In this document: piece by piece, positions 330 through 14,761 of the stretch
Position numbering within the stretch: the first letter of the stretch is position 1
Layout of the letters: each line of letters begins with the position of its first letter
Origin: an uncultured Cyclobacteriaceae bacterium
GTDB taxonomy: Bacteria; Bacteroidota; Bacteroidia; Cytophagales; Cyclobacteriaceae
Direction: 5' to 3'
Length of the DNA stretch: 64,000 bases
Assembly (NCBI GenBank): GCA_937146645.1
Contig: CAKZRQ010000017.1
Coordinates: 124,001-188,000 of the forward strand
Made by a program: the position numbers and the translations under genes
The notes under the pieces: model-generated
What the model was told of the DNA's origin: nothing
Seen by the model: only the letters and a program-made list of their open reading frames with translations
Database searches by the model: none

Positions 330-1987
330 CGTAAAGTCACTATTCCGTTTGAACCTAGTGCCTCTTTATGTTCTTCGGAAAGAGACCAGTTATTATCAAA
401 AAAACCTGAGGCCACAGGGGTTTGCATAGATCCTTTGAAGAGCATAAAATCTTCAAAGTTTGGTAAAACCCGATGTGTCATTGCCACGAAAGGATAACCT
501 GTTTCCTCAAGGTTCGACCACCAGCTTAAACCAGAGTTTACCACGATATAATTATTTCCCTGAGGATATATGTAAATCAGTCCATGCTCGCCGTCATTCT
601 CATTCAAATGCATGGGCAAAACCTCTTTCATCCCTGAGATGATGGAATTAGAATTGGCATCCCCAAAGAGAATCAAATTTGCATCTTCCAGATCACTTGG
701 CCGAACTTCTTTATCTGAAATAACCCTTGGGAAAAACATGATCCTTCCCAAAAACTCACCGCGATAATTTGACCAATTGGCGGCTTCTAACGCCGTGGCT
801 CTTCTGGCTGCGAGTTCCTCCTCTGATGGATTGTCCATAGTACCAAAGACGTAAACATGCCTTTGAGCAAAGGCATCAAATACAGGGCCCTCTAATCCAG
901 ACTTTTTTGTCATGACTCTGGATTCCCTGATACCAGGTTTCCATTCTCCATTTTCCTTGTAGAAATGAAATTCTGGTGCTGCAGGTAGCTGGTGATCCTT
1001 GCCATCAAGGGCCAGATTCAGGGGCTGAGAATCGTTGTAATTTGGATGCTTTGCGAGGTCAAGTGAAAAGGCGTTTAGATTTTTTGTATCGATTTTCAGG
1101 TTTCCCTCAAAATCAAAGGTGGCTTCAATCTCGGCTAATTCACCTGATTCAATTTCGGTAATTTCTACCCAATACGCGCCATCGTATTTTAGTTGACGGG
1201 TAGCAAATTTCACCTTCTGGGGATATGGATTTTTAGTAAAGTTGTCGAACCAATCGAAGATAAATCCACCTTCATAAGCATTCACCCAGCTATCGTGAAG
1301 AACACCTGGATATTCTGCATAGCTAACTTTTGTACCATTGGCCTCCATCGCTTTGATCATTCTTTGAGTTCCAGCCACTGGAACTACCGGATCTGCATCC
1401 CCATGGAAAAAATGAACGGGATAATTAAAGCTATTTTGCATAAGCTCTAAAGCTTGAGTAGGAGGGGCCGGGCAAACCGGGGCTATGGCCGCCCAGATAT
1501 CTGGTTGTGTTAATCCGATCCAAAGTGTTCCTCCACCACCCATGGAGAGTCCGGTCAAATACATGCGATTTTCATCAATAGTGAACCGTTCCTTCACATC
1601 CTCAATCACTTGCATCACATCAGTTTCGGGTACTCCTTGATAACCGGCTGTTCCTCGGGCATAAGGTGCAACTACGATATAGTTCACATCATCCCATTCG
1701 GGGAAATAGCGACTTGCTTCTACATCATTTTCTCCTTCAAGATTTGATTTGCCAAAAACTCGTCTTAATGCCAGCCTATGATTAGAACCAGCGCCGTGAA
1801 GCATAACCACCAAAGGATAGGCGTTCATTTCATTGTAATCTTTTGGTAGGTACAATGCATAGGGTTGCTCGGTATCATCCAAATCAGAGTGAACAGTAAG
1901 TACCTGAGGACCGGATTCTAATTTTTGTCCTATAGAACTTCCCCACATTAAAAATAAGAGGATAAAGGGGATGAGAATTTTTTTCAT
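326..1987 (-). CDS. Secreted alpha/beta hydrolase (PHB depolymerase/prolyl-oligopeptidase-like esterase)
   Basis: ORF 326..2017; likely start at internal ATG (MKKILIPFILLFLMWGSSIGQ signal peptide). VVMLHGAGSNH and GLSMGGGG nucleophile elbow, HDSW near the end of the domain. Confidence 0.7.
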   Translation of the reverse strand: MKKILIPFILLFLMWGSSIGQKLESGPQVLTVHSDLDDTEQPYALYLPKDYNEMNAYPLVVMLHGAGSNHRLALRRVFGKSNLEGENDVEASRYFPEWDDVNYIVVAPYARGTAGYQGVPETDVMQVIEDVKERFTIDENRMYLTGLSMGGGGTLWIGLTQPDIWAAIAPVCPAPPTQALELMQNSFNYPVHFFHGDADPVVPVAGTQRMIKAMEANGTKVSYAEYPGVLHDSWVNAYEGGFIFDWFDNFTKNPYPQKVKFATRQLKYDGAYWVEITEIESGELAEIEATFDFEGNLKIDTKNLNAFSLDLAKHPNYNDSQPLNLALDGKDHQLPAAPEFHFYKENGEWKPGIRESRVMTKKSGLEGPVFDAFAQRHVYVFGTMDNPSEEELAARRATALEAANWSNYRGEFLGRIMFFPRVISDKEVRPSDLEDANLILFGDANSNSIISGMKEVLPMHLNENDGEHGLIYIYPQGNNYIVVNSGLSWWSNLEETGYPFVAMTHRVLPNFEDFMLFKGSMQTPVASGFFDNNWSLSEEHKEALGSNGIVTLR

Positions 1988-2093
1988 AGTGATGTAAAAT
2001 TGAATAGATTGAAGCAAGGGAATATAATTAAAAATTAGCGCCGCTCATGGTTCCTTTTGGCGAAGGACCATAGAATGTGCTGAATGGATAATC

Positions 2094-3194
2094 ATGAAGA
2101 CCAGCAGACTCCAACAATGGGCATACATAGTCACCCTGATTGTTTTTGGTGTGATTATTTTGAAAGAAGGATCATTTCTTTTTGTCCCTCTTCTTTGGGG
2201 TATATTCTTCGCATTCGCGCTTTACCCCATGGCACATTGGCTCGAGCTAAAGCGAACCCCACGAGCTTTGGCTATAGTGATAAGTATCCTGGTGGTGAGC
2301 GTGTTTGTCATCGGGGTCCTATATGTACTTTTCAATCAGGTGGTGAATTTGGCCAAAGACATTCCGGAAATCGGGGAGCAACTACGCTCTAAATCCAATA
2401 CCTATCTCAAGGATATCTTCGCATTTTTTGATTTAGAAGTAGGGGAATCGCTGGAAAACTTCGGACTGATGGAGATTGTGAAGGTTGAAAATCTGAGCAA
2501 AACATTGTTTGCTACGGGGAAGTCTATCACCCTTGGTGGAATTGTTCCGTTATACGTTTTTCTTTTACTGTATTACAAGGACTTCTTTACAAGCTTCCTC
2601 CTGATGGTTTCTGATGATCCGGGAGAAAAAGTAATGAACTGGGCCAGATCTACGGGTAGTCTGATTAAATCATATCTGGTAGGCTTAGTAAAGGTGACTT
2701 TTGTAGTCGCCTTGCTTTCGGGCATCTATTTCTACTTTATAGGAAGTAAGTATTTTATTCTATTTGCCGTATTGGTGGGAGTATTAAATCCCATTCCCTA
2801 CGTTGGAGTAATTCTTAGCTCATCTGTTGCTATTTTCTTCATGTTCCTTACTACTGACTCTTTGCTTTACCCTTTACTAACTATCCTTGTGCTTTGGGGG
2901 ATTCAGCTTTTGGAGAACAATATTATCACACCATTGGTGGTCGGTTCTCAAGTAAAGGTGAATGCCCTAGCAGTGGTTTTAGCCATACTTTTTGGAGGCT
3001 GGCTTTGGGGAGTTTCGGGTATGGTGCTGTGTATACCCCTGGTAGGGGTCTTGAAGCTTACCTTGGAACAAAGTACTGACTACCAAGCCTATGGTTTCCT
3101 CCTTAGCGATTCGGTCAAAATTGTAGAAGAGAATGAAAACTACTGGTCCTTGCTAAGAAAAAAAATCGGTGGCAAAAAAGGCTCCAATAGTTAA
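2094..3194 (+). CDS. AI-2E family transporter (PerM/TqsA-like permease)
   Basis: 366 aa polytopic protein with GVLNPIPYVGVILSS and LLENNIITPLVVGSQVKVNALAVVLAILFGG motifs typical of the family. Confidence 0.88.
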   Translation: MKTSRLQQWAYIVTLIVFGVIILKEGSFLFVPLLWGIFFAFALYPMAHWLELKRTPRALAIVISILVVSVFVIGVLYVLFNQVVNLAKDIPEIGEQLRSKSNTYLKDIFAFFDLEVGESLENFGLMEIVKVENLSKTLFATGKSITLGGIVPLYVFLLLYYKDFFTSFLLMVSDDPGEKVMNWARSTGSLIKSYLVGLVKVTFVVALLSGIYFYFIGSKYFILFAVLVGVLNPIPYVGVILSSSVAIFFMFLTTDSLLYPLLTILVLWGIQLLENNIITPLVVGSQVKVNALAVVLAILFGGWLWGVSGMVLCIPLVGVLKLTLEQSTDYQAYGFLLSDSVKIVEENENYWSLLRKKIGGKKGSNS

Positions 3195-13873: not shown

Positions 13874-14159
13874 ATCCTAATTATCATTCGCCGCCAAAAA
13901 AGTCTTTAGAAGATTCCTGTCAAATAAAGCACTATTGCCAAAGTAACGGCGTATAGCTTGTCAATTTTAAGGGCACTAAGTAAATGAAAATTAGAAGTAA
14001 TAAAAAAGGTAGGATTTAGTTTTGAAAAAGAGGCTAATAATGTAGGTAATAAGGGAAGTTATTATCACCACAATCGACTCGAATTTAGGATTCTAGTAAC
14101 CATTTAATTGGAAATCCTACGGCTTAAATATCTCTGATTCTCCAGACACGATATCTATT

Positions 14160-14588
14160 AGGGTATTGAAATGGGGCATAAAAAAAGCCCTCGAAAATCG
14201 AAGGCTTAAGTCGGGGTGGCATCCCGATAGTTATCGGGAGAACCTAAGACCTTCCCGACTCTAAAGGTCGGGACGCGATATCAATCAAAGGGTATTGAAA
14301 TGAGGCATAAAAAAAGCCCCCTGGAATTGAAGTCTTAATGTCGGGGTGGCATCCCGATGGTTATAGGGAGAACCTGCGACCTTCACGACACCAAAGGTCG
14401 GGACGCGATGTCAATTAAAGGGTATAGAAATCGGCATAAAAAAAGCCCTCGTAGAATCGAAGGCTTTAATGTCGGGGTGGCAGGATTCGAACCTACGACC
14501 TTCCCGACTCTAAAGGTCGGGACGCGATGTCAATTAAAGGGTATTGAAATGGGGCATAAAAAAAGCCCTCGAAAATCGAAGGCTTAAG
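14160..14588 (-). repeat. Tandem array of ~119-130 bp units (three degenerate copies) derived from the 3' part of the adjacent tRNA-Pro plus its terminator
   Basis: Unit starts 'agggtat(t/a)gaaat' at 14160, 14289, 14419 and 14538; each contains gcataaaaaaagcc(c) terminator-like hairpin, gtcggggtggc tRNA 3' end and cgcgat-flanked palindrome. Confidence 0.85.
14558..14586 (-). terminator. Intrinsic terminator downstream of tRNA-Pro
   Basis: Minus strand AGCCTTCGATTTTCGAGGGCTTTTTTT. Confidence 0.75.
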
Positions 14589-14662
14589 TCGGGGTGGCAG
14601 GATTCGAACCTACGACCTCCTGCTCCCAAAGCAGGCGCGATACCGGGCTACGCTACACCCCG
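14589..14662 (-). tRNA. tRNA-Pro (anticodon TGG)
   Basis: Minus strand CGGGGTGTAGCGTAGCCCGGTATCGCGCCTGCTTTGGGAGCAGGAGGTCGTAGGTTCGAATCCTGCCACCCCGA; acceptor stem CGGGGTG/CACCCCG, GGTTCGAATCC T-arm, TTTGGGA loop. Confidence 0.95.
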
Positions 14663-14672
14663 TCCAAGAATG

Positions 14673-14761
14673 CAGAGAGTGGGGGATTCGAACCCCCGGT
14701 ACGGTTTGACCCGTACGACAGTTTAGCAAACTGCTGGTTTAAGCCACTCACCCAACTCTCT
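14673..14761 (-). tRNA. tRNA-Ser (anticodon GCT)
   Basis: Minus strand AGAGAGTTGGGTGAGTGGCTTAAACCAGCAGTTTGCTAAACTGTCGTACGGGTCAAACCGTACCGGGGGTTCGAATCCCCCACTCTCTG; long variable arm, acceptor AGAGAGT/ACTCTCT. Confidence 0.95.

Follow-up and report, generated by a model that had tools for sequence, protein, structure and literature searches.

Why an intact proline tRNA gene should be followed by a series of broken copies of itself, in which arms have given way to palindromes, is the question raised by one locus of an uncultured Cyclobacteriaceae bacterium of the genus Algoriphagus (GCA_937146645.1, contig CAKZRQ010000017.1). The locus lies in the 64,000-nucleotide stretch that was analysed, hereafter the window, whose numbering is used below. 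The array beside tRNA-Pro(TGG) is real and consists of partial copies of that gene in tandem on the minus strand. Comparison with relatives suggests that it is probably the decaying, nuclease-less form of a selfish unit that is tied to a tRNA gene and carries a GIY-YIG nuclease similar to SegB of T-even phages. As read from the genomes of relatives, the complete unit runs from the intact tRNA gene and its terminator through a small GIY-YIG open reading frame (ORF) to an arm-swapped copy of the tRNA and a further terminator, often repeated in tandem. In this copy, the anticodon arm, and often also the D or T arm, is replaced by a perfect GC-rich hairpin.

The gene from which the array derives is the tRNA-Pro(TGG) gene at 14588/14589-14662 (ARAGORN; Rfam tRNA, 67.1 bits), and the terminator hairpin of this gene (14563-14585) is the template for the terminators of the units; it and all parts of the array lie on the minus strand. 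A sequence-only reading of the window had described three tandem units after the intact gene, starting at 14160, 14289 and 14419, and the repeat analysis agrees, returning a family of four 62-nt copies at 14160, 14289, 14419 and 14538 (spacing 129/130/119) together with 130-nt units. The units are 119-130 bp long, and the 5' half of the tRNA is missing from them as claimed, each beginning with ATCGCG at about tRNA position 22. Unit 1 (14419-14537) comprises ATCGCG (14523-14528), the 21-nt palindrome TCCCGACCTTTAGAGTCGGGA (14502-14522), an intact tRNA 3' half (14471-14501), a terminator (14442-14467) and a spacer. Here the whole 17-nt anticodon arm, tRNA positions 28-44, has been exactly exchanged for TCCCGACCTTTAGAGTCGGGA with its flanks preserved, again as that reading had proposed. 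In unit 2 (14289-14418) both palindromes are degenerate, with 3 mismatches in that of the anticodon arm (14383-14403) and 2 in that of the T-arm (14352-14369), and the tRNA 3' end and a degenerate terminator follow. In unit 3 (14160-14288) both palindromes are perfect, the anticodon-arm one at 14253-14273 and the 18-nt T-arm palindrome TCCCGATAACTATCGGGA at 14222-14239, and the tRNA 3' end and a terminator (14185-14207) follow. While the T-arm of the two farther copies had been described as replaced, and a palindrome is indeed present, the arm is only interrupted: GAATCC (positions 58-63) alone is exchanged for TCCCGATAACTATCGGGA, and GTAGGTTC and TGCC stay. Likewise, the terminator expected in each unit is clean for the intact gene and for units 1 and 3 but degenerate in unit 2. 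In shuffled sequences, 0 palindrome matches are expected even with up to 3 mismatches allowed. The head of a decayed fourth unit was aligned at about 14117-14152 (ATCGTG-TCTGGAGAATCAGAGA-..GCCGTAGG).

In Rfam searches, no array unit scores as a tRNA and only the two intact genes do, the second being tRNA-Ser(GCT) at 14672-14761 on the minus strand (ARAGORN; Rfam), a neighbour common to the window and to relatives with a Pro-type nuclease (L302, L307). Structure prediction gave no cloverleaf-like fold for the window units. The Rfam model 'Plastid-psbl-rps4', which overlaps a tRNA gene, matches the plus strand opposite tRNA-Ser (14673-14726) with 54 bits; the score is under its cut-off and the match is not a real hit.

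The nuclease link lies outside the window and was therefore beyond the reach of the sequence-only reading. The same layout, with its nuclease gene in place, was found in other genera; all genomes compared are drafts. In genome G126, tRNA-Pro(TGG) and its terminator are followed by four tandem units, each made of the GIY-YIG gene, ATCGCG, TGGCGCTTAGGCGCCA, AGGTCG...CCACCCCGAC and a terminator. In G099 and G209, the order tRNA-Ser(GCT), tRNA-Pro(TGG), GIY-YIG gene and arm-swapped tRNA-Pro reproduces the neighbourhood of the window. The tRNA copy is bordered by ATCGCG in the window, G126, G099 and G147 and by ATCACG in G209, and the Pro(TGG) breakpoint, ATCGCG-hairpin-AGGTCG, is alike in the window and in the other genera. 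The hairpin that occupies this place in the other genera is unrelated in sequence to that of the window, and exact copies of it occur only in the locus of the element (G126, G209 and probably G147). In both G126 and G209, the hairpin loop contains the nuclease stop codon. Since the layout, the tRNA breakpoint and the neighbourhood all match Pro(TGG) units elsewhere, the array in the window fits a complete unit minus its ORF. Relatives of the nuclease encoded at locus L213, at an E-value of 1e-10, were present in 28 of 292 genomes of the order, Pro- and Ala-linked ones included. The L213 locus itself, from a Cytophagales metagenome-assembled genome (MAG), holds five tandem pairs of arm-swapped tRNA-Pro(GGG) and GIY-YIG gene (1408-3161) with the intact tRNA-Pro(GGG) last; the intact gene thus stands at the 3' end, the reverse of the order in Algoriphagus.

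Linkage to tRNA genes is a property of many such nucleases. GIY-YIG genes occur in all 41 genomes of the genus that were searched, and the stand-alone ones mostly encode 80-120 residues. Among the 84 stand-alone loci analysed, which are the best-scoring ones and not a random sample, 44 have an intact tRNA gene within 260 bp upstream on the same strand, 39 of them within 120 bp, and 0 have a tRNA gene nearby on the opposite strand; a simple calculation (about 45 tRNA genes times 260 bp, over 4.5 Mb) puts chance proximity at well under 1%. Most of the 44 tRNA-linked ORFs have downstream a copy of the same tRNA, with gaps at 28/31-44/45 and about 63. By a strict criterion the ORF enters the copy in 18 of the 44, and its stop codon often comes from tRNA sequence. 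Units of nuclease gene and arm-swapped copy recur in tandem, three for Ala in L126, three for Asp in L088 and three for Leu in L120, and sequence pattern alone gives 3-5 tandem nuclease units in L126, L088, L120, L323 and L213.

Moreover, the nuclease lineages are matched to the tRNA that they accompany. In the protein tree, the Ala (11/11), Asp (6/6) and Val (6/6) nucleases each form one clade, and those of Met and of two Leu types nearly do so; over all groups, the tree contains 11 changes of tRNA identity, compared with 42.9 when identities are shuffled. The PF01541 domain was detected in 11 of 11 members of the Ala clade, with E-values down to 7e-19, and the catalytic-domain columns Y, R, H, E and N are invariant. 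Among proteins of solved structure, the best profile matches are those of the UPF0213 group and the structure-specific endonuclease SLX1.

Hairpin-for-hairpin substitution with preserved flanks, the central claim of the sequence-only reading, proved correct and recurs in at least eight other tRNA types. Across Algoriphagus, we found arm-swapped copies of Pro, Ala, Asp, Val, Lys, Met, Leu, Arg and Thr tRNA genes, and the swap is arm-exact in Pro, Ala, Lys, Asp, Val, Met, Leu and Arg, as in a tRNA-Met copy of the genome of the window whose D-arm is exactly exchanged (L010). A survey of chained BLAST pieces yielded 140 swapped segments whose hairpin stem is 6 bp or longer; 93 of them replace the anticodon arm, 24 the T-arm or acceptor and 14 the D-arm, and the commonest boundary is tRNA positions 28-44. 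The tRNA-Pro copies in other genomes of Algoriphagus have 18-19-nt palindromes such as TCCCGCAGCAGTGCGGGA and TCCCGATTTTAGATCGGGA for an anticodon arm, lie on either side of the intact gene, and in some cases keep all other arms intact. The genome of the window likewise has palindrome-bearing broken copies beside intact tRNA-Met, Leu, Asp (two arms), Ala, Asn and Arg genes, and one beside a tRNA-Thr 3' half. ARAGORN calls arm-swapped copies tRNA-Stop, tRNA-Cys or tRNA-??? with four-base anticodons (L023 1238-1465; L032 1627-1829; L031, L035, L037 and L126), and calls of this kind in Bacteroidota annotations may be these elements.

The replacing hairpins are themselves under constraint. In 33 distinct 18-nt anticodon-arm hairpins, 98.3% of cells are paired, compared with 24-60% in slid controls, and covariation appears at two pairs with 29 cells changed on both sides, a result seen in 0 of 500 shuffles. 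Pairs 6 and 7 covary among A-U, C-G and U-A, while the outer TCCCG/CGGGA is almost constant, partly through how the set was selected. Because pairs 6 and 7 change together, the hairpin, and not merely a repeat, is conserved; it is kept by paired changes within this set and even by unrelated sequences between genera.

It is unlikely, in our view, that dispersed palindromes of the repetitive extragenic palindromic (REP) kind simply insert at random into redundant, decaying tRNA duplicates, with the nuclease genes as bystanders. The sequence-only reading had raised REP-like insertion, and pattern searches of the same genome did return an excess of TCCCGA-N-TCGGGA (28 sites, some of them away from tRNAs, versus 7 in the reversed control), with about 10 of the 28 sites in broken tRNA copies next to intact tRNAs; compound palindromes, in addition, accumulate in old copies. 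The exact palindrome TCCCGACCTTTAGAGTCGGGA is found in this array only. However, the events are replacements with arm-exact ends, chiefly in one arm, the nuclease clades track tRNA identity, and the two Y1_Tnp loci of the genome contain none of the array palindromes. A dispersed REP family is not the whole answer, because other genera hold an unrelated palindrome, confined to the element, at the same position.

Comparison of orthologous sites reveals the unit in different states. The tRNA-Ala locus occurs across species in an empty, a nuclease-less and a nuclease-bearing state; one two-unit, nuclease-less tRNA-Ala array (L270) is much like that of the window and has nuclease-bearing orthologues in other species (L266, L268). 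At the tRNA-Lys locus of L043, nuclease-bearing and nuclease-less units stand side by side. The comparison with relatives that the sequence-only reading had recommended gave counterparts of the array across the genus and an empty site in the closest relative: in G023 (L019), the nearest relative found, tRNA-Ser, tRNA-Pro and the terminator are 93% identical and the downstream gene is the same, and the array is absent from the syntenic locus. A second tRNA-Pro(TGG) gene of the genome of the window (L175; G000 contig C65, 29654-29728) lies at the very end of its contig, which was possibly broken by a repeat array. An ATG-started stretch between terminator and tRNA copy, MPHFNTL-stop, was considered as a possible ORF relic; its frame shifts between copies and it was not used as evidence.

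From these patterns we infer cleavage, mobility and a function of the hairpin swap. The unit may work in the manner of the SegB type, with its protein as a putative homing endonuclease. The GIY-YIG enzyme would cut DNA at or near its tRNA gene, recognized as sequence or as an extruded hairpin, and recombinational repair between tRNA copies, for which phage SegB is the model, would carry the unit to empty sites. The same repair could lengthen or shorten the tandem array, as SegB sets a precedent for. The swap would deprive the tRNA copy inside the unit of its anticodon arm, leaving a copy that is neither cut nor charged as a tRNA, and a hairpin would be retained at the swap site as something that the enzyme, the recombination or the folding of the RNA requires. 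The array in the window would then have lost its ORF and kept the repeats of tRNA copy and terminator. Recognition of a DNA structure, such as an extruded tRNA arm, is a serious possibility, plausible because the best structural relatives are UPF0213 proteins and SLX1.

Several observations weigh against a decayed nuclease unit of this type. No GIY-YIG gene was found in or near the array in the window, and the Pro-clade nuclease is absent from its genome, which is why the loss of the ORF is something that we infer. Within the genus, many arrays of arm-swapped tRNA-Pro lack a nuclease, and about half of the GIY-YIG loci have no tRNA beside them; the unlinked clades occur amid other dispersed palindromic repeats or within an S23-like gene. 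The matching of clades to tRNAs could come from vertical inheritance at fixed loci. The intact tRNA-Ala gene is identical with and without the nuclease gene, so the tRNA gene as a target would need some other protection; a simple scheme of poison and resistant copy was not supported, no distinct tRNA-Ala allele being found on nuclease-bearing chromosomes.

The GIY-YIG clades without tRNA neighbours occur amid the dispersed palindromic repeats GGCTTCGACTCCGCTCAGCCTGACA; GTCATTTCGACC...GAGAAATCTC; and GGTTCGACAAGCTCACCAACCG (L085-L087, L089, L091-L093, L097, L098 and L102-L107), apparently with one repeat family per clade, which recalls REP/RAYT pairs. In two genomes (L109 and L111, around 1477-1725), a GIY-YIG ORF splits a putative S23/IVP gene of the four-helix-bundle type, at the same position in each.

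The tRNA-linked nucleases extend beyond the genus. Among named genomes, a profile search with the Ala clade returned 28 close relatives, which come from Algoriphagus, Belliella, Indibacter, Echinicola, Arthrospiribacter and from MAGs labelled Spirosoma. In all but two of these loci, the nuclease gene is preceded at 41-386 bp by tRNA-Ala(GGC) or by a copy that is still called a tRNA. The two exceptions, L185 and L192, have an arm-swapped copy upstream, and in L197 the call for the upstream tRNA leaves its anticodon undetermined. A same-strand tRNA also precedes a dozen of the 52 distant relatives in other phyla, for example tRNA-Gly(CCC) in Elusimicrobia. At the Elusimicrobia loci L215, L220 and L221 (1400-1700), the GIY-YIG ORF begins 31 bp after tRNA-Gly(CCC) and is followed in L220 and L221 by a putative miaA; no swapped tRNA copy was seen at these three loci.

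More tentatively, the units might constitute a new class of mobile element, in which a minimal, SLX1-like structure-specific GIY-YIG nuclease acts on the hairpins of a single tRNA gene and spreads through hairpin-for-hairpin exchange, exactly replacing the anticodon, D or T arm of a tRNA copy by a hairpin whose sequence is free. Such a class would have one nuclease lineage per tRNA gene and similar designs in Elusimicrobia, Omnitrophota and candidate phyla, and the array in the window would be a non-autonomous derivative. We regard this wider proposal as possible but doubtful.

The remaining explanations fare worse than REP-like insertion. It is improbable that the arm-swapped copies serve as functional, tRNA-like RNAs with a stable hairpin for an anticodon arm, transcribed by read-through of the tRNA and used as signals for processing of the ORF downstream, as decoys or as regulatory RNA. 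Although compensatory changes keep the hairpin paired, the terminator is copied along with each unit, and some copies retain all other arms and are still tRNA-like to ARAGORN (L032), the copies often lack the 5' half, acceptor or T-arm, the window units neither fold as cloverleaves nor score as tRNAs, and units within a single array have decayed. Of the ideas in the sequence-only reading, remnants of an integration site came nearest, in that the units of relatives do hold a GIY-YIG nuclease gene, although not a recombinase island. Ordinary insertion of an island by an integrase, with the tRNA as attachment site, is very improbable: repeated tRNA 3' ends are its classic sign and the anticodon and T loops are known integrase sublocations, but the copies are about 120-130 bp apart with nothing between them and no room for a recombinase gene, the four flanking ORFs tested contain no integrase or other mobility domain, no recombinase gene has been seen so far in the intact units of relatives, and the palindromes and the nuclease linkage are left unexplained. 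Equally little weight falls on vertically inherited, domesticated devices that tune tRNA dosage through nuclease-driven tandem amplification, since the amplified part is the swapped, non-decoding copy and not the working tRNA and presence is patchy between species, even though within families the clades keep to a single tRNA locus and SegB amplifies tRNA genes to the advantage of phage T6 (PMC13096335).

The preferred reading, a decayed unit with a SegB-like nuclease, can be set against several known systems. SLX1 and the UPF0213 proteins are the best profile matches with solved structures, and the structure specificity of SLX1 would suit a hairpin or cruciform target; however, as far as is known, they have no tRNA linkage and no tandem arrays, and their roles in the host are housekeeping or unassigned. 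The small dispersed repeats of cyanobacteria and the hairpin elements of mitochondria are short hairpins inside structured RNA genes, like the units here; we know of no cognate nuclease per tRNA and no exact arm replacement among them.

The REP/RAYT and REPIN systems share with our units small palindromes, compensated stems and a nuclease-type gene whose 3' end may join the repeat (PMC2817692, PMC3116915). A REP has a GT(A/G)G head before its palindrome and often more than 100 copies per genome (PMC2817692), whereas the palindromes here begin with TCCCG, TGGCGC or CCACGC without such a head, sit in tRNA copies, are low in number (the 28 sites, loosely defined, versus 7 in the control) and accompany a GIY-YIG instead of a Y1/HUH enzyme. 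With the head, the copy number and a Y1/HUH transposase flank all lacking, assignment to REP/RAYT was rejected.

SegB is a free-standing GIY-YIG homing endonuclease of T-even phages whose gene lies among tRNA genes (PMC13096335; PMC2988022). It drives tandem amplification of tRNA plus nuclease gene (PMC13096335), probably via microhomology shared by the 5' end of the tRNA and the 3' end of the nuclease (PMC13096335; PMC2988022). The units described here resemble it in the GIY-YIG domain, the adjacency to tRNA genes, the tandem repetition and the type of tRNA/nuclease junction. They differ in being chromosomal and not phage-borne, in the matching of clades to tRNAs, where no clade-to-isoacceptor matching and no isotype preference has been reported for SegB, in the arm-swapped copies and hairpins, none of which are described for SegB, and in the size of the proteins, about 80-120 residues and mostly the catalytic domain alone.

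In the partial literature collection searched, we found no earlier description of tRNA-linked arm-swap units and no paper combining GIY-YIG with repetitive extragenic palindromic sequences; a search for chromosomal tRNA-linked GIY-YIG genes yielded nothing beyond phage SegB, group I introns and fungal mitochondria, and a 2006 phylogenomic survey of the GIY-YIG family mentions tRNA merely in passing. The family of tRNA-linked selfish elements is thus apparently undescribed so far. The exact exchange of a tRNA hairpin has no described mechanism within reach of that literature and is directly testable. Puzzling pseudo-tRNA calls in Bacteroidota, with an undetermined anticodon or as 'tRNA-Stop', would be explained by such units, and many tiny GIY-YIG genes without annotated function would gain a possible role. 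While free-standing, homing-type nucleases tied to tRNA genes were known from phages, the set described here lies on bacterial chromosomes, with one lineage per tRNA gene, each carrying edited copies of its own neighbour tRNA gene.
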